DNA of 59,459 bases from NCBI GenBank assembly GCA_029261965.1, contig JAJDAH010000375.1, positions 1 to 59,459 on the forward strand. The letters are read 5' to 3'. Positions 2,090 through 32,052 of the stretch are shown here, one piece after another. The DNA is from Polyangiaceae bacterium (lineage in GTDB: Bacteria; Myxococcota_A; Polyangia; Polyangiales; Polyangiaceae). The notes below the pieces were generated by a model. It worked only from the letters and a program-made list of their open reading frames with translations. It was not told where the DNA came from and searched no databases. A program made the position numbers and the translations under genes. Each line of letters begins with the position of its first letter. Position 1 is the stretch's first letter.

Positions 2090-2112
2090 GGCCTTGCGCC
2101 GTGAACCGACGC

Positions 2113-2195
2113 TCTGAAAACGGTTCCCCAGCGCAAAGCTTGAGAAGAACGGGCCAGGGGGGGCGCTCATCACCAGAAAAGCCAGTGTTTTCAGA
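2113..2195. promoter_or_regulatory. Long-spaced inverted repeat in divergent intergenic region
   Basis: Between the divergent starts at 2089 and 2302, TCTGAAAAC (2113-2121) and its exact reverse complement GTTTTCAGA (2187-2195) are separated by 65 bases. The arms are AT-richer than the surroundings and could be paired regulator sites. Nine matching bases over this distance could also be chance. Confidence 0.25.
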
Positions 2196-2301
2196 CTGTC
2201 CGAGGCTCCGCCGTGACGGCGCTCCAGCCCTCTCGAGAGGACCTGGCGCAGAGCGGCGGTCGGAGCTCGGGGGCACCTGGACGAGCCACACGTTCGCATC
2301 G

Positions 2302-3990: not shown

Positions 3991-4012
3991 GGCGCCGCGG
4001 CGGAACGTGCGC

Positions 4013-9364: not shown

Positions 9365-9608
9365 GACTAACAGGTTACGGCAAGCACGCCCGCTGACGTA
9401 AGAGCTGAAGTTCCGAAGGCCGGTCGCGCAGTCACCCTACTGCGTACTTGTCCTCCGGGGTTCTCCGGACCTCCGCCGGCTCCCGCGGGTGCGATTCGGA
9501 ATCCGACGGGGGTGTCGGAATTCAACATCTCGGTCGCGATTGCCCCGGATGCCACGGTGATTCGCAAGCCGCCAGTCGCGGCGAACGACGAACCTCGGAG
9601 GGTATCAA

Positions 9609-10955: not shown

Positions 10956-10970
10956 CGAACATCAGTACGA

Positions 10971-10996
10971 GGGCCTACGCAAGATCGCGTAGGCCC
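10971..10996 (+). terminator. Hairpin terminator after Cys-rich lipoprotein
   Basis: GGGCCTACGC and its perfect reverse complement GCGTAGGCCC flank a 6-base loop, 16 bases after the stop codon. There is no U-tract, as is common in high-GC genomes, but the 10-bp stem and position fit an intrinsic terminator. Confidence 0.65.
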
Positions 10997-11011
10997 TCCC
11001 GGGGGACCCTG

Positions 11012-11252
11012 ATGAGAGTTTTGACGGCGCATTCTCGAATCGTCGTCCACGAATGCGTCGCCATTGGTGCACAAGACTATCTGAGCAAGATCACCATCGA
11101 CGCTCGGTCGATTGGCTACTCCATTTCGCAACGACCCCTGCGGCGAGGCGGGCATCATCTACAAACCGTTCTTGGTGAGCGCCCTTTTGACACGAGTGCG
11201 CGAGCTCCTCGACCGCGACCGAGAATCCGAAGGGCAACCTCGGGAAGCGTGA
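11012..11252 (+). pseudogene. Decayed response-regulator remnant
   Basis: Two REC C-terminal fragments sit in different frames with no full gene. From 11012 one frame reads AIGAQDYLSKITIDARSIGY, close to the end of REC2 of the diguanylate cyclase (GAQDYLVKGEVSADRLRRVI). From about 11142 to the stop at 11250-11252 another frame reads GIIYKPFLVSALLTRVRELL, the KPF and final helix of a REC domain. The phosphoacceptor portion and everything upstream are missing. The simplest reading is a frameshifted, truncated regulator or hybrid-kinase receiver left between two signalling operons. It ends one base before the 3' end of the convergent regulator at 11254. Confidence 0.6.
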
Positions 11253-11253
11253 G

Positions 11254-11694
11254 TCACGCAGTAGCGTGCTTCGGCGGCAGCTTGGCGAATCCGAACCAGA
11301 AATCCTCCATCTTGGCGAGCATGGCGACATAGCCACCGAAGTCGCCTGGCTTGGTCAAATAGCAGTTGGCCTTGGCTTCGTAGCTCGCCAGGACGTCCAT
11401 CGCAGAAGCGCTCGAGCTCAAGATGATGACCGGGATCGCGCAGAGCGCCGCATCCCTCTTGATGATTTCGAGCAACTCGTGCCCGCTCATGCGTGGAAGG
11501 TTGAGGTCCAGCAAGATCAGATCCGGCCGAGGGGCATCGGGGAAACGACCCTCGCGCCTGAGAAACTCCAGGGCTTCGTCGCCATTGTCCACGACGAACA
11601 ACTCGCGAACGACTCGACTGTTCTCGAGTGCCTCCCGCGTCAGCTCGACGTCTCCTGGATTGTCCTCGACCATCAAGATGTCTACCGTCGTCAT
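11254..11694 (-). CDS. Single-domain response regulator, Rcp1-like
   Basis: 146 residues from ATG 11694 (MTTVDILMVEDNPGDV). REC only, with phosphoacceptor D63 in LILLDLNLP, the switch Ser stretch ILSSSAS, and Lys-Pro in YLTKPGD. Its start overlaps the stop of the kinase gene by 4 bases, so the two are translationally coupled and this is the kinase's cognate partner by context. It is more canonical (Lys-Pro retained) than its paralogue at 5755-6189. No output domain, so it probably works as a phosphate shuttle or through protein contacts. Confidence 0.93.
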   Translation of the reverse strand: MTTVDILMVEDNPGDVELTREALENSRVVRELFVVDNGDEALEFLRREGRFPDAPRPDLILLDLNLPRMSGHELLEIIKRDAALCAIPVIILSSSASAMDVLASYEAKANCYLTKPGDFGGYVAMLAKMEDFWFGFAKLPPKHATA

Positions 11695-13238
11695 GATGCC
11701 TCCCCAACTGAGCTCGCGTAGCGGAGTGTGAAGTTGAACGTCGTGCCGCATCCCAGCTCTGATTCTACCCAAATTCGTCCGCCGTGCCCCTCGACGATTT
11801 TTTTCGCCACCGAGAGCCCGATGCCGCTACCCGCTGGCGCCTCCCGGCCCCCGAGTCGCTGAAAAATCACGAACACTCGCTCTGCAAAACGCTCTTCGAT
11901 GCCAATTCCATCGTCCGCGACGGTGACTCTGCAAAAGTCGTCGTCTTCGCGTCGAGCGCCGATGCGGACCATCGGCCGCTCGGCGCCTCGAAACTTGATG
12001 GCGTTGTCGATTAGGTTCTGAAAGAGCTGGACCAACTGCGTGCGGTCGCCCACCACGAACGGTAGCTCCCCATGCTCGATCCGAGCGCCGGACTCTTCGA
12101 TCGCAATCTGAAGGTTGTCTCGAGCCAAAGCTACGACTTCCGTCAGGTCGACCCGAGAGCGCTCCTGGTCGTGGCCAACCTTGGAGTATTCGAGCAAATC
12201 GCCAATCAGTTGCTTCATCCGCGTGGCGCCGTCGAGAGCGAACCCCAAATACCGGTGCCCGCGCTCGTCGAGCAGGTCACCGTAGCGATCCGAGAGCAGC
12301 TCGGTGTACGCCGAAACCATTCGGAGAGGCTCACGAAGATCGTGCGAAGCGACGTAGGCGAACTGTTCGAGGTCCCTATTCGAACGCTCGAGGTCACACG
12401 TGCGTTCTTCGAGGGCCATCACCAGACGCTTGGTCTCGCTCACGTCGCGAGCGATCGCCGACGCCCCGATGACGCGGTCCAAAGCATCGAAGATCGGAGA
12501 CACGGTGAGGGAGACTGTGACTCGCATCCCGTCGGCGCGGACTCGCTCGGTTTCGAACGGCGGCACGCGCTTGCCCTCGCGTATCCGCGCGTGAATGTCG
12601 TGAACTTCGTCGAGGCGATCGAGCGGAACTATCGTCTCGACGCTCCGACCCACGATTTCCTCCGCTTGGTAGCCGTAGAGTCGCGCTGCCCCATCGTTCC
12701 AACTCGTTATCGTCCCATCGAGCTTCTTGCTCAAGATCGCGTCACCGCTCGATTCCACGATGGAAGACAACAACTTCATGCGAGCGCGCAGCTGGTCCAA
12801 CGTTTCCTTCGGCACCGAAGCCATTGGCGGCGTCGACAGTTGCGCGTCGAGAGCGCGGAGATTCCGGTCGAGACTCGCGCGTGCCTGAGCTCGCAAGCAA
12901 GCTGACCCTATCGTGGTCACCACCCTCGCGGTTTCGTTGGCGGCGACGACGGCAATCGACGCGGGAACGTAAGGGATGGTCTTGAGCGACTCCGAAAGCG
13001 ACGCGACTTTCTCGCTCGGTGGCGCGAGCACGATTTCGCTCGAGGGTGATTCACGATGCACTCGCTGGGCCACGACGAGGGGCGACGGGACGGCGGGTCC
13101 GAGCAGAACCACCTGGGTGTCTTTCAGCGGAAGGTCCCACGCTCTAGCCTCGACTCGGGTCGATTCACGCCATGCGAGTAACCGCCGTCGAAGCTCGACT
13201 TCCAGAGGAGGCAAACAGCCGACAAGGGTCACCCGCAC
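11691..13238 (-). CDS. PAS-domain sensor histidine kinase
   Basis: 515 residues, GTG start, no membrane segment. Residues 1-125 resemble a degenerate receiver-like or unknown input region (VVLLGPAVPSPLVV). A PAS domain follows (about 155-285, SGDAILSKKLDGTITSWN and VIGASAIARDVSE), then a phosphoacceptor helix with H299 in VASHDLREPL and HATPase_c (DNAIKF, DDGIGIE, GSGIGLSVAKK). The kinase core is very close to that of the MASE1 kinase. It starts 11 bases after the stop of the acyl-CoA-dehydrogenase-like gene and overlaps its regulator by 4 bases, so the three genes form a probable operon. Confidence 0.92.
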   Translation of the reverse strand: MRVTLVGCLPPLEVELRRRLLAWRESTRVEARAWDLPLKDTQVVLLGPAVPSPLVVAQRVHRESPSSEIVLAPPSEKVASLSESLKTIPYVPASIAVVAANETARVVTTIGSACLRAQARASLDRNLRALDAQLSTPPMASVPKETLDQLRARMKLLSSIVESSGDAILSKKLDGTITSWNDGAARLYGYQAEEIVGRSVETIVPLDRLDEVHDIHARIREGKRVPPFETERVRADGMRVTVSLTVSPIFDALDRVIGASAIARDVSETKRLVMALEERTCDLERSNRDLEQFAYVASHDLREPLRMVSAYTELLSDRYGDLLDERGHRYLGFALDGATRMKQLIGDLLEYSKVGHDQERSRVDLTEVVALARDNLQIAIEESGARIEHGELPFVVGDRTQLVQLFQNLIDNAIKFRGAERPMVRIGARREDDDFCRVTVADDGIGIEERFAERVFVIFQRLGGREAPAGSGIGLSVAKKIVEGHGGRIWVESELGCGTTFNFTLRYASSVGEAS

Positions 13239-13249
13239 CGGCGTGAACC

Positions 13250-14407
13250 TCAGCCACTCAGAATCGGGATGTCGAGCAGTGCCCGACCCGTCCAGGTGTA
13301 AAGAATGTCGGTGGTCGGCGACATCACGTGCGCCGCTCGCGCATCACGCAACAGTCGCGTCAGCACCGAGCCGTCTCGGTAGGCGCTGCCGCCAACGAGG
13401 GTCATGCACTCGTTGACGATGTTCACCGCAGCCGTGGCGACCTCGGCCTTCGCGGAACAGAGCGCTGGCAACGCGTCGGGGGCGCCGGCGTCCCCGGCTT
13501 CCGCAGCCCACAGACACAGCTGGCGCGTGCGTTGATACTGGGCCCATAGCTCACCAGTTCTGTGCTGCAGCACTTCCACCTCAGCCAGCGCGCCGCCCGT
13601 GTGGGTGTAGCTCCGCCCCTTGAGGTGCTCCACGGCTTCACTCATGGCGCGCCGGGCCAGCCCCAGGTACGTCCCGGCCATCGCCACCAAAAAATAGGGG
13701 GCAACGGCATTGAACACGTACCAGATTTGCTCGCCCTCATCGCCGAGGAGGTGCTCACGAGACACGCCCACCGAGTCCAGGTCGAGACTCCGGGAGGCAT
13801 TTCCGCGCATTCCCCAGCCCGACCAGGGTTGACCCCAGCGAATGCCCGCAGAGTCGGCAGGCACGACGAGCATCGAAAAGTGGCCCGGAGGCGCGTCCGG
13901 ATCCGCCGCGACCACCGAGACGACGTATGAGTCCGCGTGGCCACCGTTGGTGACGAAGCACTTCGACCCCGTCACGACGTACCCCTCTTCAGTCTTCTCG
14001 AGCCGCGCTTGCGGTAGGTAGAAGTGGCTCCCAGACCCGGGCTCACTCAGCGCGAGCGTGGTGAGGTGTTTCCCCTCCGCGATCGGGCGCAGAAACTCTT
14101 CGGCCTGGGACGGCGAAGCCTTGGCCGCCACGCAAGCCGTGCCCACGCAGTGCATGCCGAAGCAAAGCGCCGCCGACGCGTCGACTTCGCCGAGTCGATC
14201 GCAGACGCGCAGCAGACCCGACAAACCGTGCCCGAGGCCCCCGTAGCGCTCCGGCACGACCAGCCCCCCAGCTCCTGCCGCCTGAAGCGCCCGCAGAGTT
14301 TCTTCGGGCCATGCCGCGTGCTCGTCGCATGCTGCCGCGTGCTTCGAGGCGACGCCGTGCGCCACCTTGCTGGCCACGTCCACGACATTTTCGAATGAAG
14401 CGTTCAC
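13250..14407 (-). CDS. Acyl-CoA dehydrogenase family flavoprotein, atypical active site
   Basis: 385 residues from GTG 14407 (VNASFENVVDVASKV); the longer in-frame extension upstream reads as non-coding. The ACAD fold is clear: N-terminal helical domain, middle FAD/substrate motif (TTLALSEPGSGSHFY), second motif YVVTGSKCFVTNGG, and the C-terminal helical domain (LVGGSAYRDGSVLTRLLRDARAAHVMSP). Ordinary short-chain ACADs carry the catalytic Glu in a (Y)EGT motif after RDAR; here that stretch is VMSPTTDI, with no Glu. The base may lie elsewhere, or the protein may be an ACAD-fold monooxygenase or another oxidoreductase. It lies 11 bases upstream of a histidine kinase, an unusual partner. Confidence 0.85.
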   Translation of the reverse strand: MNASFENVVDVASKVAHGVASKHAAACDEHAAWPEETLRALQAAGAGGLVVPERYGGLGHGLSGLLRVCDRLGEVDASAALCFGMHCVGTACVAAKASPSQAEEFLRPIAEGKHLTTLALSEPGSGSHFYLPQARLEKTEEGYVVTGSKCFVTNGGHADSYVVSVVAADPDAPPGHFSMLVVPADSAGIRWGQPWSGWGMRGNASRSLDLDSVGVSREHLLGDEGEQIWYVFNAVAPYFLVAMAGTYLGLARRAMSEAVEHLKGRSYTHTGGALAEVEVLQHRTGELWAQYQRTRQLCLWAAEAGDAGAPDALPALCSAKAEVATAAVNIVNECMTLVGGSAYRDGSVLTRLLRDARAAHVMSPTTDILYTWTGRALLDIPILSG

Positions 14408-14534
14408 TGTGAAGCGATCCGTTGCTCGCCACTTTACACGGAGCAACGAGCCTGAACGCCGAAACGTTCCCGCTCCAGCGGGCCGACCGACGAACCTACG
14501 TACTACCGCGTACGGGTTGCCACGGTCTCGTCGA

Positions 14535-14554
14535 ACTAGTCGCCCCGGACTAGT
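14535..14554. promoter_or_regulatory. Inverted repeat, possible operator
   Basis: ACTAGTC (14535-14541) and its perfect reverse complement GACTAGT (14548-14554) are separated by six bases. This dyad lies about 130 bases upstream of the ACAD-like start. CTAG is rare in GC-rich DNA, so two copies in dyad are notable. The regulator is unknown. Confidence 0.4.
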
Positions 14555-14698
14555 GTCGCGTCTCGAAAGTCGCGAAGGGAATTCGCGCGGCGCGTATTCT
14601 CGCAAAGCTCGGGATTTCGGCGGGAGACGCGGCACTCGCGGTGCGAAGCACCGCAAGGAAACAGGAGAAGGGTCTGCTAGAGCGGTGGCGACCCGTAA

Positions 14699-14736
14699 CC
14701 GCTGGCGGCCCTCACCCCGGGGGGGGCCGCCGGCGG
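14699..14736. terminator. GC-rich hairpin, probable terminator
   Basis: Arms 14699-14711 and 14724-14736 pair over 13 positions (one G-T pair) around a 12-base loop. It lies 30 bases beyond the stop of the minus-strand methyltransferase gene, so it probably ends that operon. The T-rich run is on the plus-strand side (14737-14755), so direction is uncertain. Confidence 0.5.
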
Positions 14737-14765
14737 TTTACGATTGTTACTTTTGAGACAGACCA

Positions 14766-15632
14766 CTAGCTCGCGGGTTTGACGAACTTGATCGCGAACC
14801 GATCGCTCGTGCCGCGCTTGTCGCCGGCGGCGCTTGGCGACGCATTCCAATCTTTCGTGTCGGCCGGATTGCGAAGCGCGTCGTTTGCCGATTCGAAGCG
14901 GAATCCCGCGGCCTCCACCTCTTTTCGCAAAACGGCCTCCTCGATACGGTGCAGAGTCTTGACGTCCCCGACTCCGCGACCGCTCTTCGCCTCGTGATCC
15001 ACAATCACATAGGCGCCACCGGGCTTCAGAGCAGCAAGGACGGCGGCATTCATCCGCGGCCTGTCCACACCCATCCAGACGGTGTCGTGATAAAAAAGCA
15101 CGTTGACGACGAGATCGAGGTTTGTCGCTGCCGGCGGCAATGGATCGTCGAACTCTCTATCGACCCGCACGACGTGGGCCATTACGGGTTTCGCGAGGCG
15201 AGCCGTCAGCGGTTTTTCCGCGAAGCGCTCGAGAATGAACTGGTTGTTCTGGGCATAAACGACACCAGTCGATCCGACCGAGCGCGCGAGGAGCTCGGTC
15301 GTGTACCCGGTGCCAGCGCCGAGGTCGGCCACCTTCATTCCGAGCTTCACGTCCATGAACGCCAGGAGTGCCAGTGGCTTTCGCCCGGCATCCATCGACC
15401 GGTCGGCGTCCGAGCGATCCGCCGCTTCAACGGCGCTGACGAGGTGTGCCGGTAGAGCCGCCGGACCCGGATCCGGCGACGCTAGTGGCGCCGCCGACGC
15501 TGCTGAGGTTGGAGGAGCCGACGCCTCCGCAGCCGGCGGAGCGCTGGTCACCGGCTGCGCAGAATGGCAGCCGGCCAGCGCTAGCGGAAGGCAAGCCCAG
15601 CGGAACGCGCGGCGCGTGCCCGTGCTCACCAC
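14766..15632 (-). CDS. Lipoprotein with SAM-dependent methyltransferase fold
   Basis: About 288 residues; several TTG/GTG starts are possible (15638, 15632, 15629). The N-terminus is a lipoprotein signal with lipobox LALAGC, then an Ala/Pro/Ser linker. Residues about 75-285 form a class I methyltransferase: motif I VADLGAGTGYTTELLA, motif II/III region, LVVNVLFYHDTVWM, and the post-motif LKPGGAYVIVDHE. This group occurs in proteobacteria as predicted secreted methyltransferases. SAM is cytoplasmic, so activity outside the membrane is puzzling. It starts 21 bases after the rhodanese lipoprotein stop, so they probably share an operon. Confidence 0.85.
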   Translation of the reverse strand: MVSTGTRRAFRWACLPLALAGCHSAQPVTSAPPAAEASAPPTSAASAAPLASPDPGPAALPAHLVSAVEAADRSDADRSMDAGRKPLALLAFMDVKLGMKVADLGAGTGYTTELLARSVGSTGVVYAQNNQFILERFAEKPLTARLAKPVMAHVVRVDREFDDPLPPAATNLDLVVNVLFYHDTVWMGVDRPRMNAAVLAALKPGGAYVIVDHEAKSGRGVGDVKTLHRIEEAVLRKEVEAAGFRFESANDALRNPADTKDWNASPSAAGDKRGTSDRFAIKFVKPAS

Positions 15633-15653
15633 AATCAAGATATCACCAGCAGA

Positions 15654-16142
15654 TCAGCTGGTCGGCTTCTCGATGTCTTTGCCGGCCTTGGCCCAGCCTT
15701 TGATGCCTGCAGCCATGACGTTGACGTCCTCGTAGCCGGCCTTCTTGGCGAGCGTTGCGGCCTTCGGCGCCGCCGAGCACTTTTCGCTTCCGCAGTAGAA
15801 GACGAGCTTCGTCGACTTCTCGTCGGGGAGCTCACCTTCCTTCAGCTCCTTGTAGTTCGCGAGCTTCACCGCGCCGGGCACCATTCCGTGCTCCTTGCGC
15901 GTTTCGTCCGAGTTCACGTCGACGGCGACACAATCCGATTTGGCCAGCATCTTCTCGACCTCATCCGGCGTGAGCTGGTTGAACTCGTCGTGGGGGTCGG
16001 CTTTGGCGGCGGTCGGCGTTGCCGGCTTTTCGGCCTCGGGTGCAGCGGCAGCCTCGGCGGGCGCCTCTTTTCCTTTGTCGCACGCGCAGAGGGCTAGAGC
16101 TGGGGCCAGGGTGAGGACGGACAGGACGGTTTTGAAAGACAT
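15654..16142 (-). CDS. Rhodanese-domain lipoprotein
   Basis: 162 residues from ATG 16142 (MSFKTVLSVL) with a GGAGT ribosome site. Lipobox ALALCACDKG, then an Ala/Glu/Pro linker, then a rhodanese domain (about 60-160): DEVEKMLAKSD..VAVDVN, GMVPGAVKL, active-site loop FYCGSEKCSAAPKAA with the catalytic Cys, and AGIKGWAKAGKDIE. It should bind or transfer sulfur in the periplasm. It is the first gene of a two-gene unit with the lipoprotein methyltransferase, and divergence is absent: the LuxR regulator upstream ends 88 bases away on the same strand. Confidence 0.9.
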   Translation of the reverse strand: MSFKTVLSVLTLAPALALCACDKGKEAPAEAAAAPEAEKPATPTAAKADPHDEFNQLTPDEVEKMLAKSDCVAVDVNSDETRKEHGMVPGAVKLANYKELKEGELPDEKSTKLVFYCGSEKCSAAPKAATLAKKAGYEDVNVMAAGIKGWAKAGKDIEKPTS

Positions 16143-16230
16143 GGTGACTCCTGAACGGGCCGAAGTTTGCGAGGCGGCCCGAAGTGGGGCGAAGACTCTA
16201 GCAGATTCCAGAAAAGGTGGTCGTTTCCAC

Positions 16231-17358
16231 TCAGCCCGGCGCGCGGCGCATGGGCCAGGCGACGACCCCCGCCGCAATCGCCCACCTCGTCAGACCAGCG
16301 GTACCCCGCACCCCCAGCTTGCGCATCGCGTTTTCGCGATGCTTGTCGACCGTGCGCTCGGAGATGTCGAGCTCGAGCGCGATTTCCTTGCTGGAATCGC
16401 CTTCGGCAACGCACCGCACGACCTCTTGTTCACGTTCGGTCAAAGGAACTCGACCGAGGCCTCCATCATCGACGGAGGCGAGCAGGAACGGTTCGATATC
16501 CGGGCGCCGTCTGCGCTGGAGGTGAGCGTCGACGACCGCGTGCCGCAGCGGCGCGGCCGGCACCTCCTTCGAAAGCACCAACGCGGCGCCGGCGCGAATC
16601 ATTTGGTCCGCGTATTCCGGCAAGTCGATCCCGGTGAACCCGATGATCCGCGTGCGTGGCAATTTTGAGCAAATCGCCCGCGTCGCCTCGACGCCGCAAA
16701 CGGCCGGCATGCGCGCGTCCATCACGATGACGTCCGGTCGAACCGCGAGAGCGAGCTCGACAGCGCTCGAGCCATTCGACGCGGTGGCCACGACCTCGAT
16801 GTGGCGGCTGCGCTGAAACAGCCGCGCCAGCGCGTCGAGCGTGGTGGGGTGGTCGTCGCACACCTGCAGCCGGACCGGCAGCTCAGGCACTTCTACCGCG
16901 ACTTCCGCGAACGTCGCGACGGCTCGACTGACCCTCTCCCACTCACTCGCTGATGGTTGCATCGGAGCATCGTCGAAGAGCAACGCCACGGCGCACTCGT
17001 GCTCCGCGCCATCGCGAGGCACCCGAAGTGAAACCCCCGCGACCGCCGCGACGTTCGCCCGACCGGCGAGTTGGCGTCGCTTGAAAGCCTTCGACGTACC
17101 GGCGTGCTCGATCCACTCCGGCCGACCGAACTGATGAACCCGACCCGGCAGACCCTCGCTCAGGTCGTACGCCGGCGTGAGCTCGAACGCTTCGTCGATG
17201 GCCTTGGTGGCGGACCAGGAAGCCACGAGGCTGAGGCGCGAGCCGGTCAGCTCAAAAATCTCCGCGCGCACGAAGCCGAGCGCCGCCACCCGCCGCAACT
17301 CGGCATGCTCGAACCGATGGTCCGGGCTCACAGCGGTAGGATTTTTCGTGGAATGCAT
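16231..17358 (-). CDS. GAF-REC-LuxR transcriptional response regulator
   Basis: 375 residues. Residues about 20-155 look like a GAF-type sensory domain (GFVRAEIFELTGSRLSLVASW, SEGLPGRVHQFGRPEWIE). REC follows (about 162-285): VCDDHPTTLDALARLF, phosphoacceptor Asp in VIVMDARMP, and LSKEVPAA. The C-terminal HTH_LuxR reads PLTEREQEVVRCVAEGDSSKEIA then ISERTVDKHRENAMRKLGV. GAF-first order is unusual for NarL-type regulators, and may allow direct ligand control in addition to phosphorylation. No kinase is adjacent. It is divergent from the MopE-like lipoprotein gene at 17463, a possible target. Confidence 0.88.
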   Translation of the reverse strand: MHSTKNPTAVSPDHRFEHAELRRVAALGFVRAEIFELTGSRLSLVASWSATKAIDEAFELTPAYDLSEGLPGRVHQFGRPEWIEHAGTSKAFKRRQLAGRANVAAVAGVSLRVPRDGAEHECAVALLFDDAPMQPSASEWERVSRAVATFAEVAVEVPELPVRLQVCDDHPTTLDALARLFQRSRHIEVVATASNGSSAVELALAVRPDVIVMDARMPAVCGVEATRAICSKLPRTRIIGFTGIDLPEYADQMIRAGAALVLSKEVPAAPLRHAVVDAHLQRRRRPDIEPFLLASVDDGGLGRVPLTEREQEVVRCVAEGDSSKEIALELDISERTVDKHRENAMRKLGVRGTAGLTRWAIAAGVVAWPMRRAPG

Positions 17359-22682: not shown

Positions 22683-23660
22683 CTAAGCGGGCAGCTGCCC
22701 AAGGGCTCGGTAGCCGTCGACTGCCTCTCGGAGCGTAGCGTCCAGCGTGTCCTTTGGGCGCCAGCCGAGCTCGTTCTGGATCCGGTCGCTCGAGCAGACG
22801 AACGCGGGCGCGGTCATCTGCTGATACTGCTTGAGATCGAGCTGGTTGAGGCGGCCGGTGAGCTTCGAAAGCCCGGTAGACGCGAGCATGCCGACAAACA
22901 CCAAGGACTTCGGGACCCGCAGTACACGGACAGAACGGTCCATCGCCGCGGCGATGCTGCGGATGAGCTCATCGTTGCTCGTCACATCGTTCGCGGCGAC
23001 GAAAAGGACACGATGCTGCTCGCTCGCATCCTCGCTCATGAGAATCATTGCGTCGACCAAGTCGTTCACACTCACGAAGCTCAGCATCTGCTCGCCAAAA
23101 CCGGGCAGTACCGCGACTCCCGAGCTCGCCATTCGGTACAGCGTGAGCGTCGCCGGGTCCCCCGCGCCGAGCACGATGCTCGGGCGGAACGACGTGGTCG
23201 GAAACGGCTGAGCCTTCATGAGTGCTTCGGCCGCGAGCTTGGCGCGACCGTAGGCGTCGACTGGATGTGGCTCGTCGTTCTCGTCGAGAGGTTCGCTTCC
23301 GGAAGGGCCAGCGGCAGCGAGGGAAGACGCAAAGAGGACTCGCCGCGGCGTCCATTTCTGTGCCCGCAAAGCCGTGAGCATCCTCTCGACCGCGTCGTAG
23401 TTGACCTCGGCGTACTCCTTTTGAGTCTTGCCTGCGATCACCGCGGCAAGATGAACGACGACGTCGACTTCGGGTAGCTCGAGGTGCGGATCATCGAACA
23501 GGGAGAGGTCCCCGCGCATGACTTGGATGCGCTCGGAGAGATCTCCCGCGAGCTTGCTCGGCGTGCGCACGAGCCCGAGGACCTCGTGCCCAGCACCGAG
23601 CAGTTGCCGACAAAAGTGAGTTCCAATGAAGCCGGTGACGCCGGTGACGAATACGCGCAT
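22683..23660 (-). CDS. Extended SDR, NAD-dependent epimerase/dehydratase
   Basis: 325 residues, cytoplasmic. N-terminal nucleotide-binding motif VTGVTGFIGTHF (GxxGxxG), acidic residues after beta-2, VVHLAAV, the Ser in FASSLAAAG, and YGRAKLAAE (YxxxK) give the complete catalytic set. The family includes sugar epimerases, 3-beta-hydroxysteroid dehydrogenases and ketoreductases; the substrate cannot be read from sequence. It is convergent with the beta-helix lipoprotein (6-base gap) and lies 31 bases downstream of the desaturase gene on the same strand, so the two may be co-transcribed. Confidence 0.88.
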   Translation of the reverse strand: MRVFVTGVTGFIGTHFCRQLLGAGHEVLGLVRTPSKLAGDLSERIQVMRGDLSLFDDPHLELPEVDVVVHLAAVIAGKTQKEYAEVNYDAVERMLTALRAQKWTPRRVLFASSLAAAGPSGSEPLDENDEPHPVDAYGRAKLAAEALMKAQPFPTTSFRPSIVLGAGDPATLTLYRMASSGVAVLPGFGEQMLSFVSVNDLVDAMILMSEDASEQHRVLFVAANDVTSNDELIRSIAAAMDRSVRVLRVPKSLVFVGMLASTGLSKLTGRLNQLDLKQYQQMTAPAFVCSSDRIQNELGWRPKDTLDATLREAVDGYRALGQLPA

Positions 23661-23691: not shown

Positions 23692-24492
23692 CTACCAGAA
23701 CGCGCGGTTGAGATGGCTGTCGGGTATCCGGTCAGATATGCGCGCGTGCAGGATCGGCAAACGCGACCAGTGAAGGCCCGGACTCACGTGATGCGCCGTG
23801 TGGTAGCCCAGGTTCATCGACAAGAAATTGTAGAGCGCGTTGATGCGGTTGCGGCTGGCGTGCATGGGCACGTCGGTGTCGAGACCCGCGTGATGCTCGT
23901 AGGTGACCCAACTCGTGTGCAGCAGCGTCAACATCGGGGTCACCACGAACACGATCAAAGTATTGACCGGGTTGACCCACGCCATCCCCGCTAAGATCGC
24001 GTACCGGGGAAGCTTGAACAACAGGTACCGGCGGTAGATGCCCGGGTGTTTGCGCCCGACGCGATGGATGTCGAACGGATGACGAAAAAACAACCGCAGG
24101 GTGTATTCGACTCGGCCCATCTGACTGCCGTCTCCGCGCGTCCAACGCGACTCGTCCACTTCACGGCCGGGATGCTGCTCGAGATAGTTCAGATGGTGCC
24201 CTAGGTTGTGGTGGAGCACCCAAGCGTAGGATCCCACGCCCGTCTGCAGAGCCAGGGGGATCTCGAGAAGCCGATTGAGCGTCGGACTCCAAAAGGTGTT
24301 GATGTGCTGATGGTTGTGGTGGATCGGAGCCGAAATCAGCGAGACGATCAGCAGCCCCGCTGCAGCGATCGCCGCGAGCCACGGCGGCGCGAAGTACCAA
24401 ACCGTCAGTTGAGCCACGAACAGGAGCGCGACGACGACCAGTGGAAACCAGTCGACGCGGTAGCGAAGGATTCTCCCGTTTCGCGGATTCAA
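23692..24492 (-). CDS. Membrane fatty acid desaturase/hydroxylase family protein
   Basis: About 266 residues from TTG 24492, chosen for its AGAAGG ribosome site; a GTG at 24582 is possible. Four hydrophobic segments (about 15-60 and 160-200) and three His-rich boxes: HHNHQH (about 58-63), HHNLGHH (about 93-99), HHAG (about 200), and HTAHH near 233, which supply ligands for a non-haem di-iron centre. Such enzymes desaturate or hydroxylate acyl chains, carotenoids or sterols. Its upstream neighbour across a divergent gap is the receptor; downstream is the SDR. Confidence 0.88.
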   Translation of the reverse strand: MNPRNGRILRYRVDWFPLVVVALLFVAQLTVWYFAPPWLAAIAAAGLLIVSLISAPIHHNHQHINTFWSPTLNRLLEIPLALQTGVGSYAWVLHHNLGHHLNYLEQHPGREVDESRWTRGDGSQMGRVEYTLRLFFRHPFDIHRVGRKHPGIYRRYLLFKLPRYAILAGMAWVNPVNTLIVFVVTPMLTLLHTSWVTYEHHAGLDTDVPMHASRNRINALYNFLSMNLGYHTAHHVSPGLHWSRLPILHARISDRIPDSHLNRAFW

Positions 24493-24693
24493 AGTCCCCG
24501 ACCTTCTTCGGCTTTCGCTGAAAGCACAACCAGGATCGTCGGTCCTGACGGCATCGTGACGGTGCGCTGACCAATGCTGCACGGTATTTCACTTTTTCGG
24601 GCGTGGGGGCCGCCGATTCGGCGTCAGCGAGACGACGAGCTCTCGGCTCGTCCACACCGACACTCTTCGCCGAAGCGAACCGTAAGTGCTGGC

Positions 24694-26961
24694 GTGTTGT
24701 CACGGAGCTTCGTCGGCCGAGTAGTGGCAACTCTGGTGCTGAGCTGCGCGACGGCGCACGGGCAACCCCGAGTGAATTCACCAGATCCCGAAAGCTCGCC
24801 CGGCCCCGAGCTCGCGCCACCCGAACCCGCTTCGTCGACCGGCGTCGACTATCCCTCCGGGGCCGATGGCGACGCGGTTGTCTTGCTCGAGCTGACCATC
24901 GGCGCCGATGGGCAAGTGAACCGAGCGCGGGTCGTCGACGGCGACGAACCGTTCGCAACGGCCGCTGAGCTCGCGGCGAAGGCGTGGCGGTTTCGACCCG
25001 CGAAGAGCAATGGCCAAGCTGTCGCCGCGAAGATTCGAGTGGAGGTCTCCTTTGCGGCGCCGTCGCGCGATCCGGCCCAGGACCCCGACCGAAGGGCGAG
25101 CGGACTGGGCTCCGCAACCGTCGAGCCCGCGAACGCGGTCGATGGTCCCGAAGTGCTGGTGGAGGACGACCGCCCGGATCCGGCGGCTCACCACTTAGGG
25201 CGCGTCGAGGTCCGTCAGATGCCTGGCGCCTTCGGCGATCCGTTTCGGGCGATCGAAGCTCAACCCGGGGTGACGCCGTTTTTGAGTGGAACGCCGATAT
25301 TCTTCGTGCGCGGTGCACCTCCCGGGAACGTGGGCTATTTCCTCGACGGCATTCCCCTCCCGCTTCTGTTTCACGTGGCCACGGGACCCGCGGTCGTGCC
25401 GCCAGGACTCATCGAGGGTCTCGCTTTCTACCCGGGCGCGTACCCGGCTCGTTACGGGCGAGCTGCCGGCGGCATCCTCGCCGCCGAGACCGTCCGGCCT
25501 CGCGCCGAGTGGCACGGCGAAACGACCATCCGCGTGCTCGATGCCGGGGCGATGGTGGAGGCGCCGTTCGCGGGCGGCAGAGGCACGGCGCTCGTCGGGG
25601 GGCGACACGCCTACAGCGCCAAGCTGGTCAGCGATCTGCTGAACGACGTCGAATACCGCTACTGGGATTACCAAGCGCGAGTCTCCTACGAGCTCAGCCC
25701 ACGCGACCGCGTCCAGCTCTTCGGTTTCGGCTCGAACGACTTTCTCGGGGCGAGCTCGGGCGTGTTCGACGACAACACGACTTTTTTCGATGCCGAATTT
25801 CACCGGATCGACGTTCGGTACGACCGCTCGATCAACGCGCGGTCGAGCGCCAGGGTCGGCGTGACTTTGGGCCTCGACGAGACTCGTGGCGACGACGATG
25901 ATTTCGGAAAGTCACGAAAACTCTCGGTTAGAGCGCGCACCGACGTGCACCACCGCGCCGGCGAACACACGACGGTTCGTGTCGGCGCAGACATCTCGGT
26001 CGCCGACGTCGACTTTCGGCTCCCGAGGAACTCGACCAGCTTGGAGGATCTCGCGAGCCTGGCACGCAACTTCAACTCTCGCATCGACAGCGTCATCGGC
26101 ACCTATGTCGACGCGGAATTCCGGGTCACGCCGCGGATCACGCTGAATCCCGGCGTTCGCGCCGACTTATTTCAGTCCGGCGACAACAGCGAGGTCGGCA
26201 TCGACCCACGACTTTCGGCAGTGTTCGAGTTGACCCCCCGAGTCCGAACGATCCACGCCGTGGGGATCTCGCATCAGCCCCCGAGCTTTCTCATTCCGGT
26301 CCCCGGCGTAGACATCGCCGGCTTGCGAGGGGGTCTACAGCGCGGGGTGCAAACGAGCTCCGGCGTCGAAGCCGATCTCCCGGAAAAGCTCGCGGTCGGG
26401 ACTACGTTCTTTCACAACGCCATCATCGACAGCTCGGATCCATTGAGTCTCTTGAGGATCGGTGTCGACGACGAGCTCGATCTGCGCCCGCTCGGACGGA
26501 CGGTCGGCGTGGAGCTCTCCGCCCGCCGCCCGCTGACCGAACGACTCGGAGGGTTCGTGTCCTACACGCTGTCGAAGTCGGTTCGCAGCTTTGGACGAGA
26601 AAGCGGACCGGGCGGATTCGACCGGCGTCACGTGCTCAGCGCGGCGCTCGGCTACGACTTCGGTCGCCGATGGAGAGCCGGCGCTCGGTACCTCTACTTC
26701 ACCGGTGGCCCCGCCGAGGTCGACAACATTCGGCTGGCACGCGATCCACCGCGCACCCGTCCTTTTCATCGCCTCGACCTCCGCGTCGAGAAACGTTGGC
26801 CCATCGGTAGCGCCGGCGCGTGGATAGCCCTGGTGTTCGAGGTGCTCAACGCGACCCTGTCGGTCGAAGAGGTCGGGCTCAAGTGCGAGCAATCGGTGTG
26901 CGAAAGCGACGAGTTCGGCCCGCTCACCGTGCCGAGCGTCGGGCTCGAAGCCGCGTTCTAG
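24694..26961 (+). CDS. TonB-dependent receptor with N-terminal TonB-C domain
   Basis: 755 residues from GTG 24694, which puts a signal peptide first (VLSRSFVGRVVATLVLSCATAHG); in-frame starts back to 24574 exist. Residues about 50-120 match the TonB C-terminal energy-transducer domain (VVLLELTIGADGQVNRARVV, AAKAWRFRPAKSNGQAV). A receptor plug follows (about 165-260: DPFRAIEAQPGV, FFVRGAPPGNVGYFLDGIP, YPARYGRAAGGILAAE), then a beta-barrel ending in a terminal Phe. TonB-C normally sits on a separate inner-membrane protein, so this fusion is unusual. Substrate unknown. It is convergent with the P450 gene (14-base gap). Confidence 0.88.
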   Translation: MLSRSFVGRVVATLVLSCATAHGQPRVNSPDPESSPGPELAPPEPASSTGVDYPSGADGDAVVLLELTIGADGQVNRARVVDGDEPFATAAELAAKAWRFRPAKSNGQAVAAKIRVEVSFAAPSRDPAQDPDRRASGLGSATVEPANAVDGPEVLVEDDRPDPAAHHLGRVEVRQMPGAFGDPFRAIEAQPGVTPFLSGTPIFFVRGAPPGNVGYFLDGIPLPLLFHVATGPAVVPPGLIEGLAFYPGAYPARYGRAAGGILAAETVRPRAEWHGETTIRVLDAGAMVEAPFAGGRGTALVGGRHAYSAKLVSDLLNDVEYRYWDYQARVSYELSPRDRVQLFGFGSNDFLGASSGVFDDNTTFFDAEFHRIDVRYDRSINARSSARVGVTLGLDETRGDDDDFGKSRKLSVRARTDVHHRAGEHTTVRVGADISVADVDFRLPRNSTSLEDLASLARNFNSRIDSVIGTYVDAEFRVTPRITLNPGVRADLFQSGDNSEVGIDPRLSAVFELTPRVRTIHAVGISHQPPSFLIPVPGVDIAGLRGGLQRGVQTSSGVEADLPEKLAVGTTFFHNAIIDSSDPLSLLRIGVDDELDLRPLGRTVGVELSARRPLTERLGGFVSYTLSKSVRSFGRESGPGGFDRRHVLSAALGYDFGRRWRAGARYLYFTGGPAEVDNIRLARDPPRTRPFHRLDLRVEKRWPIGSAGAWIALVFEVLNATLSVEEVGLKCEQSVCESDEFGPLTVPSVGLEAAF

Positions 26962-26975
26962 TTTCGGCTAGATAG

Positions 26976-28421
26976 TTAGCGAGGCGGGGCGCGTCGACGC
27001 CAAGTCACCGAGAGCTCGCTCTTTGGAGGAAAGATCCCGAGTCCTACGCGGCTCAGATCGTGCGCCGGGAGGGGCTCGGTCGGCGCGTCGAACGTGTAAC
27101 GACGCAGGAGCGTCGCGACGAGCAACTTGACCTCGTTGACTGCAAAAAACCGACCGGGACACATGCTCTTGCCGGCGCCGAAGGGCATGAACGCAAAACC
27201 GACGCGTTCGCCGTCCTTGGTGAATTGCGGCCGCTGGCCGTCTCGGACCAGAAAGCGGTCCACCACGAAGCGTTCCGGGTCCTCGAACACGCCGGGGTCG
27301 TGATGCGTCAGGTGCGGTGCGAGGCACACCCGGTCGCCTCGTCGAACTTTCCAATAACCCGAGCGCGTCTCGATGCTCGTCGCGTCGACGACCTTGCGGA
27401 CCGTGAGCGAGCCGCTGCTCAACCGCAGCGCCTCTCGAACCGCGCTTTCGAGCCGAACCATGGCGTCGAGTTGCTCGATTCGAATCGCGCCGTCCCCCGA
27501 CTCGGGCCCGGCACCAGACAGAACCTCGTCGACTTCGATTTGGATCCCCGCCGCCGCCGCGGGGTCCACCAGGAGGAACGCCAACGTCCAGAACGCGGCA
27601 GGGATCGAGTTGGCGTGCACCGCCCACAACACCGACGTTTGCACTCGACCGACCTTTTTTGGCTCGACTTGCCGGAATATCGCGAGACGTGCCCTCATCC
27701 ACTGGCTTGCCGCCGGCCCCAGATCCTCGAAGAGTGGAACCAGCTTCTCGAGCCCCGCGGCGCCTTTCCGCGTCATCATCTTCGGCATGCCAGCGACCAT
27801 GAGGGGAAAGTCTCGGTCGAGATCCCCGAAAGCGGCGGCCGCTTCGGGGCAGAACTTTCCATCACCAAAAAGCGCGTCCGTGCCGGCGGCGAACATCAGG
27901 TCCCAGACGAGCCGGTAGAGATCGGCCTCGCCAGAAGCCCCCGCGAGCCGTGTCTTCTCGAGCTCCCCCAAGACCCGCGTGAGCGCGGCTCCCATGCGTT
28001 CGCTCAAAGGCGTGAGCGCCGGCGTTTTCAGATATCGTCTCGCGGCGTCGTCGGATTTTTCGACGTCGAAGGTTCCGTGCATGTTCGGCAGATCGAACGC
28101 TTTGTCCATCACGTCCGAGGCGATCGGGCCGAAGCTCAGGTCCGGATTTTTGAGCACACCGCCGAACGAAAGCGGATCCAGCACGAAGGTCATGCGCTGA
28201 CCGGCGATGAGCAAGGTGAAGACGTCGCCATGCTGCGCGCGACAGTGGTTCAAGTACCTGTTCGAATCTCGACCGAAAGCCAGGGCGACCCCGAGGTGCG
28301 GGAGCGATCCTCGGACCAGTGGTGGCTCACCCACGCGACGCCGACCGTTGAGGACGCGCCACGCCCCAAAGTAGGCGGCACCAACGGCGGACGCGGCAAC
28401 AAACCCGGGCAGAAGTGGCAC
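26976..28421 (-). CDS. Cytochrome P450, CYP7/CYP8/CYP39-like
   Basis: 481 residues, GTG start. N-terminal hydrophobic anchor (about 4-22) followed by GEPPLVRGSLPHLGVALAFG (31-50), then the P450 fold with ExxR (E330-R333) and the haem loop FGAGKSMCPGRFF (ligand C421). The I-helix reads HANSIPAAFW (269-278), lacking the usual acid-alcohol pair, exactly as in animal CYP7A1/7B1, CYP8 and CYP39 sterol and prostanoid enzymes; LRLSSGSLTVRKV also fits that clan. Sterol or related lipid hydroxylation is inferred. Redox partners are not in the window. It neighbours a desaturase and an SDR across the receptor gene. Confidence 0.9.
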   Translation of the reverse strand: MPLLPGFVAASAVGAAYFGAWRVLNGRRRVGEPPLVRGSLPHLGVALAFGRDSNRYLNHCRAQHGDVFTLLIAGQRMTFVLDPLSFGGVLKNPDLSFGPIASDVMDKAFDLPNMHGTFDVEKSDDAARRYLKTPALTPLSERMGAALTRVLGELEKTRLAGASGEADLYRLVWDLMFAAGTDALFGDGKFCPEAAAAFGDLDRDFPLMVAGMPKMMTRKGAAGLEKLVPLFEDLGPAASQWMRARLAIFRQVEPKKVGRVQTSVLWAVHANSIPAAFWTLAFLLVDPAAAAGIQIEVDEVLSGAGPESGDGAIRIEQLDAMVRLESAVREALRLSSGSLTVRKVVDATSIETRSGYWKVRRGDRVCLAPHLTHHDPGVFEDPERFVVDRFLVRDGQRPQFTKDGERVGFAFMPFGAGKSMCPGRFFAVNEVKLLVATLLRRYTFDAPTEPLPAHDLSRVGLGIFPPKSELSVTWRRRAPPR

Positions 28422-28617: not shown

Positions 28618-29397
28618 GTGGACATCGAAAAAGCGACTGACCTGCCCTCGAAACGCGTAGTCGCAGCACTCCTGATCAGCGTGGCGGCGACGCTCGCCCT
28701 GCCCCACATCCCCGTTGCGCGCTACGCGGTTTGGCCTCTGACGCTGCTGTCGACCTTCGCCCACGAGCTGGGACACGGCATCGCCGCGATGCTCGTGGGC
28801 GGACACTTCGATCGGCTCGAGATCTTCTCCAACGGCTCGGGCGTGGCGTACAGCGCCTACGGAAGCGGTCGATTCGCGCGCGCCTTCGTTTCCGCCGGCG
28901 GACTCGTCGGTCCAGCCATCGCGTCGATGGGACTCTTCGCCCTGGCACGAAACGAACGTCGGGCGCGCTTCGCGCTCGGCGGGGTCACGGTGCTCGTCGC
29001 CATCGCCCTGCTCTTCGTCGTTCGAAACTTCTTCGGCGCAGCCTACGTGCTCGCCCTGGTCATCGTGCTCTCGTTGATCGTCAAGCTCGGAAACCCGTTC
29101 GCTGCTCGACTCACTCTCGTGTTCGTCGCGGTGCAGCTCGCGGTCAGCGTGTTCACTCGCGCCGACTATTTGTTCACGCCGGTGGCGCGAACCGGCGCCG
29201 GAGAAATGCCCTCGGACGTCGCCAACATGGCAAGCGCGCTCTTTCTCCCGTACCAATTCTGGGGTGCGCTCTGCGGAGCGGTGTCCGTCGTCGCCCTCGT
29301 CTTGGGGCTCGCGATGTACCTGCGTCCGCCGCGCCAGAAGAAATCTCCACCGAAACGCCTGCCGGGCCGCGTCGCGGGAGGCCCCCGTCTCGGGTAG
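28618..29397 (+). CDS. M50B-like membrane zinc metalloprotease
   Basis: 259 residues, GTG start. About six transmembrane segments. The first is followed by FAHELGHGIAAMLVGG (about 51-66), an HExxH zinc-binding motif inside a membrane context as in M50B/site-2-like proteases. A positively charged tail closes the protein. The NPDG-type second motif typical of S2P is not obvious, so it may be a non-proteolytic relative. It is divergent from the P450 gene (196-base gap), with no linked substrate gene. Confidence 0.8.
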   Translation: MDIEKATDLPSKRVVAALLISVAATLALPHIPVARYAVWPLTLLSTFAHELGHGIAAMLVGGHFDRLEIFSNGSGVAYSAYGSGRFARAFVSAGGLVGPAIASMGLFALARNERRARFALGGVTVLVAIALLFVVRNFFGAAYVLALVIVLSLIVKLGNPFAARLTLVFVAVQLAVSVFTRADYLFTPVARTGAGEMPSDVANMASALFLPYQFWGALCGAVSVVALVLGLAMYLRPPRQKKSPPKRLPGRVAGGPRLG

Positions 29398-29586: not shown

Positions 29587-32052
29587 ATGCCGACTAGCAC
29601 TACGCCAAGCACCGCCGGGCCTGTGGCGTCGAAGCTCGCGCGACCCGGCGCGCTCATCTTCGTGCTCGCGCTCGCCGTGATGATCCTCCAGGTCTCGCTG
29701 ACAAGGGTGTTCTCGTTCATCACCTATCACCACATGACGTACCTCGTGATCGGTGTCGCCATGCTCGGCTTCGGCGCCGCCGGGACGTTCTTGACGCTCC
29801 GACCGGATCCCGAGGACGCAGGTGCATCGTCGCGGCTGCCGCTTCACGCCGCGCTTTTTGCGCTGTCGATCCTGGTGGCTCTGTTTCTGGTGCCGAAGAT
29901 CCGGTTCTACCCGATGAACATGTACCAGCTGGGCGACACCCGGAACGTGCTCGCACTGTTGCCCATCATCGTGTTGACGGCTGCGCCCTTCTTTTTCGGC
30001 GGTCTCGGGGTGGCGCTGCTCATCAATCGCGCTGGTGCGGCAGTCAACCGCATCTACTTTTCCGATCTCGTCGGTTCGGCGTTCGGTGCACTGCTGGCGA
30101 TCGTTCTGGTCAACAATGTCGGCGCGGTGGCCTCGTGTGTGCTGGCTGCAGCGCTGGCTATGCTGGTCGCCGCGATGGCGAGTACCCGGCGCCGGTGGCT
30201 CGGGCTCCTCGGGACGGTAGCGCTCGTCGCGTTCGCTCCGCTCAGCGAGAGGCGCAGCGTGCTGCCGCTGTACGTACCGCCGGGCAAGCAGCTCTATGGG
30301 AACGAATATCAGATCGAAACCGTCAAGTGGCACGTCATCACCCGTCTCGACGTCGGCGCTCCGTTTCCTTGCAACTGCTCCTTCGGCGGGGGCCTCTCGA
30401 ACAAATACGACGGGCCCAAGGCCGACGTTCGGCTCGTATTCCAAGACGGGTCGAACCTCACCGGCATCATCCACCCGCACCCCACCCCGGAAGAGACGCC
30501 TTCGCTCGGCTTCTTCATGCAGGGGGCGCAGTACAAGCTACGAAAGAAGGCCAAAGCACTCGTCATCGGCTCCGGCGGCGGCGTCGACGTGATGGTGGCG
30601 CTCCACCACGGGGCAAGCCATGTAGTCGCCGTGGACGTCAATCCCAAAATGATGGGTTTGGTCAAGAACGAGTACGCGGACTTCGCTGGCAACGTCTTCA
30701 CGCGTGACGACGTCGAGACCGTCGTGTCCGAAGGGCGTCACTTTCTCAGCCGAGACGACAGAAAGTTCGACGTCATTCAGCTGAGCGGAGTGGACACCTG
30801 GGCAGCGCTCTCGTCCGGTGCCTACGCGCTCACGGAAAACTTCGTCTACACGGTGGACGCTTTCGAGCGATACCTCGAGCATCTCGAACCCGAAGGAATC
30901 GTCGGATTCTCGCGACCGTTCGGCAATCCCCCGTTCGAGACGCTCCGGCTGGCCGCCACGGCTGTGGAAGCATTGGAACGCTCCGGCGCGGAGGTCCCTT
31001 CGAAGCACATCTTCATTCTCGAAGGCCAAGGTCAGTCGGCGGACTTTCCGTGGGCGCAAACGCTCATCAAGCGCTCGCCCTTCACGACGAGCGAGACGAC
31101 GACGCTGACCCTTTGGGCACGGCAGATGGATTTCCGCGTGCTCTACAACCCTCACCACGCACGCAAGGGGAAGTTCGACCACCTGATCCGAGCCAATACG
31201 AAACGTCGGGAACAGCTGCTCAAAGCGTTCCCGCTGAACGTGAGCCCGGCGACGGACGATGTGCCCTTCTTTTTTCAGTTTCACCGCTGGCGAGATCTTT
31301 TTGGTGCGCCGATGGGAATCAAGGCGCCGTTGGCGATGTGGATCCTCGTCGGAAGCTTCGTCCAGACACTCGTGCTGAGCGCGATCTTCATCCTGCTGCC
31401 GCTCTACCGAAGGAAGTCCAAAGCGAGCGAAAGCGGCCGCCGCGGTCCGATATTTTTCTACTTCGCTTCGCTCGGCATGGGTTTCATTCTCGTGGAGATC
31501 GCGCTGTTGCAGAAGCTCACGGTGTTTCTCGGCGGGCCTGCGTACGCGCTCTCCATCACGCTGTTCACGCTACTCTTGGCGTCGGGGATCGGGAGTTTTC
31601 TGTCCCAGAAACGCGCGGCGGAACCCTTTCGCTTGATGAGCGTGGTCATGCCGGTGCTAGTGGTGGCGATCGGCGCCGAAGCATTCCTGCTCGACCCGGT
31701 GCTCGAAAAACTCATGGGGTTGTCTCTGACCGGGCGCGCGGCGGCGGCTGTTGTCCTGGTGGCGCCCTTGGGGATCTTGCTCGGTGTGCCCTTCCCCGCC
31801 GGGCTGCGTTTTCTCGACCAGGCGCGCCCGGAGCTCAAACCTTGGGCCTGGGGCATCAACGCGTGTGCGACGGTCGTCGGCACGACCACGTGCATGCTCA
31901 TCGTCACCTCGGTCGGTTTCCGCGCAGCACTCGCGACGGCGGCCGGCGTCTACCTGCTCGGATGGCTCGCGCTGCAAGCCGCGCGAAGCGCCGAGAACGA
32001 GAACGACCCCTCAGCGCCCGAGAGCCCGCTGTCTCAGACGTCGCAATCGTAA
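29587..32052 (+). CDS. Membrane-embedded spermidine-synthase-like protein
   Basis: 821 residues. The N-terminal third has six or so transmembrane helices (about 20-215), a central soluble domain (about 235-560) has a spermidine-synthase/methyltransferase Rossmann core (ALVIGSGGGVDVMVALHHGA about 338-357, VVAVDVNPKMMGL, FDVIQLSGVDTWAAL), and the C-terminal region (about 575-805) has further helices. Such fused proteins are widespread but mostly uncharacterised; the substrate may be membrane-associated. The residues of polyamine synthases that bind putrescine are not obviously conserved. No operon partner: both flanks are over 180 bases from the nearest gene. Confidence 0.85.
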   Translation: MPTSTTPSTAGPVASKLARPGALIFVLALAVMILQVSLTRVFSFITYHHMTYLVIGVAMLGFGAAGTFLTLRPDPEDAGASSRLPLHAALFALSILVALFLVPKIRFYPMNMYQLGDTRNVLALLPIIVLTAAPFFFGGLGVALLINRAGAAVNRIYFSDLVGSAFGALLAIVLVNNVGAVASCVLAAALAMLVAAMASTRRRWLGLLGTVALVAFAPLSERRSVLPLYVPPGKQLYGNEYQIETVKWHVITRLDVGAPFPCNCSFGGGLSNKYDGPKADVRLVFQDGSNLTGIIHPHPTPEETPSLGFFMQGAQYKLRKKAKALVIGSGGGVDVMVALHHGASHVVAVDVNPKMMGLVKNEYADFAGNVFTRDDVETVVSEGRHFLSRDDRKFDVIQLSGVDTWAALSSGAYALTENFVYTVDAFERYLEHLEPEGIVGFSRPFGNPPFETLRLAATAVEALERSGAEVPSKHIFILEGQGQSADFPWAQTLIKRSPFTTSETTTLTLWARQMDFRVLYNPHHARKGKFDHLIRANTKRREQLLKAFPLNVSPATDDVPFFFQFHRWRDLFGAPMGIKAPLAMWILVGSFVQTLVLSAIFILLPLYRRKSKASESGRRGPIFFYFASLGMGFILVEIALLQKLTVFLGGPAYALSITLFTLLLASGIGSFLSQKRAAEPFRLMSVVMPVLVVAIGAEAFLLDPVLEKLMGLSLTGRAAAAVVLVAPLGILLGVPFPAGLRFLDQARPELKPWAWGINACATVVGTTTCMLIVTSVGFRAALATAAGVYLLGWLALQAARSAENENDPSAPESPLSQTSQS

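Follow-up and report, generated by a model that had tools for sequence, protein, structure and literature searches.

A cytochrome P450 gene in a Polyangiaceae bacterium resembles the CYP7 and CYP8 enzymes of animals. Is the protein a true member of their clan, and on which substrate would it act in a bacterium? Clan 7 unites CYP7, CYP8 and CYP39, placed in one clade in PMC8110760. De novo synthesis of cholesterol in a bacterium was reported in 2023 (Lee, Wei and Welander, 2023; PMC10202945). A clan-7 P450 opens the question of oxysterols in bacteria to experiment and bears on the origin of the animal bile-acid enzymes.

The gene and its place in clan 7

The window, i.e. the whole stretch of DNA analysed, has a length of 59,459 nucleotides. 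The P450 that an earlier note on this DNA had located at 26976-28421, naming no strand, is present there on the minus strand. The complete open frame, from a GTG start codon at 28421 to a stop codon that ends at 26976, encodes 481 amino acids; no strong ribosome site was seen by eye, and the true start is uncertain. The Pfam p450 model matches the protein at 1.5e-36, and the generic hallmarks are present: ExxR, the cysteine of the heme loop and, in the predicted structure, the P450 fold. A possible N-terminal membrane helix (residues 3-25; 28347..28415, minus strand) was modelled as helix 4-25. Its hydropathy is borderline (1.40), and the first three blocks of ten residues have mean pLDDT values of 57, 64 and 75.

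All motifs quoted in the earlier note are found in the protein, encoded on the minus strand. The stretch GEPPL...LPHLGVALAFG (residues 31-50; 28272..28331) is close to CYP7A1, CYP8B1 and CYP8A1. HANSIPAAFW (residues 269-278; 27588..27617) belongs to the I-helix. LRLSSGSLTV (residues 332-341) lies within the ExxR motif and its following stretch, EALRLSSGSLTVRK (residues 330-343; 27393..27434), the CYP7A1 counterpart of which is ESLRLSSASLNIR. After ExxR, the window protein reads LRLSSGSLTVR, CYP7A1 LRLSSASLNIR and CYP8B1 LRLRAAPTLLR. The heme loop FGAGKSMCPGRFF (residues 414-426; 27144..27182) contains the axial Cys421 and the sequence CPGR, as in CYP7A1 and CYP8B1. Human CYP8A1 has CLGR, a weak sign against CYP8A1 since the zebrafish enzyme also carries CPGR.

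The lack of an acid-alcohol pair in the I-helix, as claimed before, was borne out by column-by-column alignment, which places Ala270 in the acid column and Asn271 in the Thr column. Either A-N or G-N occupies these columns in 17/17 bacterial and 4/4 animal clan-7 rows. H-T is found in eight CYP51-type rows, and E/D-T in the five other P450s of the own genome. Trp266, Asn271, Pro274 and Phe277 of the window protein are invariant across the four animal rows; the resulting pattern W...N..P..F is taken as a clan-7 feature from the present alignment, not from the literature. Together with 22 more positions, these four make up 26 columns at which clan 7 differs from a set of 12 other bacterial P450s. 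The 26/26 score of the window protein is partly built in, because this protein was one of the 17 bacterial sequences used in picking the columns.

The window protein is 30-32% identical to the four animal proteins. The value for CYP7A1 is 30%, within a range of 27-38% across the 17 bacterial proteins. A CYP family is named by an identity of about 40% or more to a member. The window protein misses this threshold for CYP8 proper, with 32% to CYP8B1 and 32% to human CYP8A1.

A phmmer search of the PDB, of which the best 60 of 149 matches were considered, gave CYP8B1 at 5.9e-60, CYP7A1 at 2.8e-57 and 3.1e-57, and CYP8A1 from 1.4e-55 (human) to 5.2e-50. The top three animal matches cover residues 25-477 of the window protein. 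The next family was CYP51 (Methylococcus) at 4e-23. A profile built from alignment A2 with 17 bacterial homologues matched, among the best 60 of 339, CYP7A1 at 2.5e-130 (438 bits), CYP8B1 at 1.3e-111 (377 bits), CYP8A1 at 7.2e-100 (338 bits) and CYP51 at 2.7e-43 (151 bits). At 34 columns differing among the three human enzymes, the window protein agrees eight times with CYP8B1, five times with CYP7A1 and four times with CYP8A1, so that the preference of the profile for CYP7A1 is less clear-cut in this particular case. Two CYP51 proteins served as controls, one from the own genome and one from another myxobacterium. Both matched CYP51 chains first (1.9e-140, to the Methylococcus enzyme, and 5e-166, respectively), and no CYP7 or CYP8 was among the PDB matches listed.

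Tree 1 comprised four animal, 17 bacterial clan-7-like and eight CYP51-type proteins (seven from other Myxococcota, one own) as well as four other P450s of the own genome. Clan 7 is represented in the trees by CYP7A1, CYP8B1 and CYP8A1, i.e. three enzymes of two families; CYP7B1, CYP39, CYP120, invertebrate and fungal P450s are outside their scope. L004, a short frame, was left out of all trees, the long branches L005 and L007 out of trees 2 and 3, and L104, overlooked by the frame finder, out of tree 3, to which two more bacterial proteins were added. Each of the three trees unites the clan-7 proteins of bacteria and animals in a single clade at 100/100, with CYP51 and the other P450s of the genome outside. 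The phylogeny thus places the window protein with CYP7A1, CYP8B1 and CYP8A1, where the earlier note had expected it. Within the clade, it groups with proteins of Enhygromyxa and Plesiocystis (94/88), then with two MAG proteins (94/90).

An AlphaFold2 model on A2 reached a mean pLDDT of 89.6 and a pTM of 0.90. Comparison of this predicted model by VIA-align with 1000 Foldseek-chosen chains ranked 3sn5, CYP7A1 with cholest-4-en-3-one, first (Z 44.9; 1.9 A over 441 residues). The first nine entries of the list all belong to clan 7, with Z 40.4-44.9; Naegleria CYP51 comes next with 34.5. The common fold, as modelled, agrees with the sequence result and is no proof of function. Searches, trees and predicted fold all support the original CYP7/CYP8 clan assignment, and the window protein is confirmed as a genuine member of clan 7 and not a mere look-alike. 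That it is an ordinary bacterial P450 of CYP51 or CYP120 type with a chance resemblance in the I-helix has a negligible probability: CYP51 is the next closest family by sequence, profile and structure, but full-length scores, tree, fold and the 26 columns set the protein off from it. Chance resemblance is ruled out by the PDB search, the profile and the structural comparison, CYP51 identity by the separate clade and the I-helix VHANSIP.

Distribution of the gene and of sterol genes

Thirteen of 377 Myxococcota genomes match the window protein at 1e-20, six of them, the own genome included, at 1e-60 or better (best four candidates scored per genome). The weaker seven, at about 1e-21 to 1e-23, have AGHHT I-helices and fall into the CYP51 clade. 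Within the window's order, 1/183 genomes matches at 1e-60, namely the own (best eight candidates per genome). The rarity in bacteria that had been proposed thus holds for the genomes searched. A contig scan with two peptide patterns identified 16 loci, five of them already among the phylum-sample matches: Enhygromyxa salina, Plesiocystis pacifica, six Nannocystis and eight MAGs, one labelled Cellvibrionales. The scan missed three relatives found later and is no census. Among 194 relatives of the Cellvibrionales MAG, four matches were obtained, the MAG itself included. The carrier genomes number at least 20 in total. Two relatives of this MAG (genomes G551 and G507) contain the clan-7-like P450s L103 and L105, in which the Asn-Thr of the I-helix is kept and the Pro is lost, as in L035; these P450s possibly represent a separate subfamily.

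The analysis thus extends the window protein to a set of bacterial homologues, most of which occur in myxobacteria with sterol genes. In a literature search outside subscription papers and CYP naming lists, none of the 12-25 best titles per query concerned a clan-7 P450 of bacteria, and such proteins may already be named in those lists. Nor did a paper on the active-site residues of CYP7A1 or CYP8B1 turn up; a sea-anemone paper that mentions Plesiocystis and P450 deals with an amine oxidase, and PMC4076195 and PMC4229089 provided background. The lone presence in the order, together with the grouping with Nannocystaceae proteins, suggests a transfer between myxobacterial orders; the alternative is loss elsewhere. 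This contig is probably not a contaminant of the assembly, with a GC content of 0.654 vs 0.649 in a rough test. The tetranucleotide correlation of the window's middle third, where the P450 lies, is 0.966 with the contig of the oxidosqualene cyclase, compared with 0.61-0.87 for sequence stretches from eight other carriers.

The earlier note had called for a genome search for two sterol enzymes, squalene epoxidase and an oxidosqualene cyclase. Both were identified in the own genome, adjacent on contig C316. The cyclase (658 aa) contains SDCTAE. It reaches 827 bits with the oxidosqualene-cyclase model TIGR03463, just below the cut-off of 851, 670 with TIGR01787, above the cut-off, and 310 with a hopene-cyclase model, below the cut-off. 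The adjoining gene (L069:10522-13947, minus strand) encodes a squalene epoxidase-squalene synthase fusion of 1141 aa, with the epoxidase domain in front, a match to a cyclase model at residues 607-687 and the synthase domain at the end. Several other Myxococcota have an epoxidase match within an open frame of 1100-1250 codons. Downstream of the cyclase on the same strand, a short-chain dehydrogenase (L069:6929-8125) matches 7-alpha-hydroxysteroid dehydrogenase models below their cut-offs. Contig C140 carries an ERG4/ERG24-type sterol reductase about 1.2 kb from CYP51. An EBP-type sterol isomerase had no match in this genome, and its sterols may therefore differ from cholesterol.

Squalene epoxidase was detected in 56/377 Myxococcota genomes and the cyclase, at 1e-100, in 62/377; two of the 62 score above the curated cut-off. 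All 19 cyclases checked contain DCTAE, six from phylum-sample loci, the own included, and 13 from carriers. Of the six phylum-sample carriers, G000, G221, G362 and G367 have both enzymes, G014 and G296 neither. The cyclase is thus present in 4/6 carriers vs 58/371 others (Fisher p 0.008) and the epoxidase in 4/6 vs 52/371 (p 0.005), kinship being ignored in both tests. Among the 16 carriers of the contig scan, 13 have a cyclase at 1e-50, all with DCTAE and six from one genus; Enhygromyxa, Plesiocystis and Nannocystis are represented. Nannocystis exedens reportedly contains steroids, according to the title of a paper; for Plesiocystis and the MAGs, the evidence consists of their gene content. 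No cyclase match at 1e-50 was obtained in G385, G391 and G392, and G385 and G392 also had no ERG24 or EBP match. These three carriers indicate that a genome can retain the gene in the absence of a sterol pathway. Nine carriers were tested for further genes: ERG24 matched in 7/9 and EBP in 5/9, and PF04116 was uninformative because it matched in 9/9.

E. salina is a sterol maker with a homologue 54% identical to the window P450. It is reported to produce cholesterol, and acid hydrolysis of its lipids released 25-hydroxycholesterol and other putative hydroxysterols; the enzyme for the C-25 hydroxylation was left open there (PMC10202945). In the main text of that report, "P450" appears a single time, within the title of a reference, and "CYP" a single time, as CYP51; a clan-7 P450 is not discussed in it.

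Proposed function and its alternatives

It appears fairly likely that the window P450 is a hydroxylase dependent on O2 and electrons that acts on the cell's own sterols, yielding oxysterols. Membership in the family, the predicted fold and the conserved motifs are shown, as are sterol genes in its own genome and in most carriers examined; we infer which molecule is hydroxylated and where, the redox partner and the use of the product. CYP51 and the sterol reductase would act first, followed by the clan-7 P450 on demethylated sterols. In the catalysing enzyme, Asn271 would take the place of the usual Thr, and the redox partner would probably be a ferredoxin with its reductase. CYP7A1 acts at C-7 and CYP8B1 at C-12 (PMC7711093). 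By analogy with these two enzymes, the likeliest site would be the alpha face of ring B or C, with C-7 as first and C-12 as second candidate. The results suggest that, in some bacteria, an enzyme of the same type as the bile-acid P450s modifies the sterols that the cell itself makes. The main evidence against a sterol substrate is the group of three carriers without cyclase.

The gene has no sterol gene beside it. A TonB-dependent receptor gene (24574-26961, plus strand) converges with the P450 gene, and an M50B peptidase gene (28618-29397, plus strand) is oriented divergently to it. A fatty-acid desaturase (23692-24582, minus strand) and a NAD-dependent epimerase (22683-23660, minus strand) lie further out. 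The receptor also has a TonB C-terminal domain and is weakly like the receptor MxcH for the siderophore myxochelin. Pfam searches with 20 more proteins, ten in the window and ten beside the P450 in L030 and L026, indicated no sterol role. None of the neighbours matched the neighbours at 16 other loci. Between the loci of other genera, few neighbour pairs are alike (31-42% identity), and the six Nannocystis loci share most neighbours; this comparison relied on a rough gene finder, which overlooked even the P450 at L021, L023 and L025. The missing sterol neighbourhood is a weak argument, as the sterol genes of E. salina are scattered and not clustered (PMC10202945).

Other parts of the window were also annotated. 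A membrane protein encoded at 29587-32052 (plus strand) has a weak spermidine-synthase/methyltransferase-like part. Judged by sequence, it belongs to a paralogue expansion in the own genome, with 15 matches at 1e-30, itself included, and it has none in 16/30 genomes. The region 710-17358 is rich in signalling genes (GGDEF with two receiver domains, receiver/PAS kinases, a MASE1-CHASE-PAS-GAF kinase, a LuxR-type regulator), among them an acyl-CoA dehydrogenase.

A non-sterol substrate, i.e. another lipid or a secondary metabolite, or a lipid peroxide isomerised in the manner of CYP8A1, is unlikely. This role keeps some weight because prostacyclin synthase, of the same clan, is an isomerase. CYP8A1 lies inside the clade of the window P450, the carriers without oxidosqualene cyclase fit a non-sterol role, and so do the desaturase and the epimerase nearby. 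Myxobacteria are, moreover, rich in secondary metabolism. Profile and structure, however, favour CYP7A1 over CYP8A1, the CPGR loop differs from that of the human CYP8A1, and sterol genes are enriched among the sampled carriers.

A second reading accepts a sterol and moves the oxygen to the side chain: the window P450 would be the missing C-25 hydroxylase of these myxobacteria and not a ring hydroxylase. A clan-7 P450 in cholesterol-making bacteria is a candidate enzyme for the hydroxysterols described in PMC10202945, and the 25-hydroxycholesterol of E. salina, found together with its close homologue, speaks for C-25. The top structural and sequence matches, however, are ring hydroxylases acting at C-7 and C-12, and the other putative hydroxysterols of E. 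salina need an enzyme, too. A role at C-25 therefore has a small chance.

Distinctly improbable is an action on sterols from prey or the environment, for uptake or breakdown. Myxobacteria prey on other microbes, some carriers have no cyclase, and the receptor gene converges on the P450 gene. Against this stand the sterol genes of the own genome and the siderophore-type resemblance of the receptor. Hydroxylation of the cell's own sterols is the preferred reading.

Origin and comparison with known enzymes

The animal proteins (n=4) sit inside the bacterial set, also after two long rows were dropped. In tree 3, the fork that joins them with 14 bacterial rows, leaving the group of the window protein outside, has a support of 96/94. 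In the AU test, bacterial monophyly was not rejected (p 0.299 in tree 2 and 0.21 in tree 3). A tentative and somewhat doubtful interpretation is that clan 7 is deepest in sterol-making bacteria, that animals obtained it from there, and that CYP7-type hydroxylation in bacteria is independent of animals. If so, bacteria already made oxysterols or lipids like bile alcohols independently of animals.

The nearest family outside clan 7 is bacterial CYP51, itself a sterol enzyme (Methylococcus capsulatus; 6mcw, 7jj1). The window protein has 22-23% identity to three myxobacterial CYP51s. The I-helix motif of CYP51 is AGxHT. Unlike the window P450, these proteins have AGHHT in the I-helix and form a separate clade; an annelid CYP51 has AGQHTS (PMC4229089).

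Prostacyclin synthase, CYP8A1 (3b6h, 2iag, 3b98), belongs to the clade of the window P450, and the human protein matched at 1.4e-55. It is an isomerase with CLGR in the human protein, and it ranks below CYP7A1 and CYP8B1 by profile and below CYP7A1 by fold. Human CYP8B1, the sterol 12-alpha-hydroxylase (7lyx, 8eoh), is the best single-sequence match (5.9e-60). Both proteins have the heme loop CPGRFFAxxEVKL in common, whereas CYP8B1 has GNTGP in place of ANSIP and LRLRAAPTLLR after ExxR.

Human CYP7A1, the cholesterol 7-alpha-hydroxylase (3sn5, 3v8d, 3dax), is the top profile match and the top structural match. The window protein is 30% identical to it and differs in the N-terminal anchor, which is weak here and was not seen in six Nannocystis homologues. 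Common to both are the I-helix ANxIPAxFW, the stretch LRLSSxSLxxR after ExxR and the CPGR loop.
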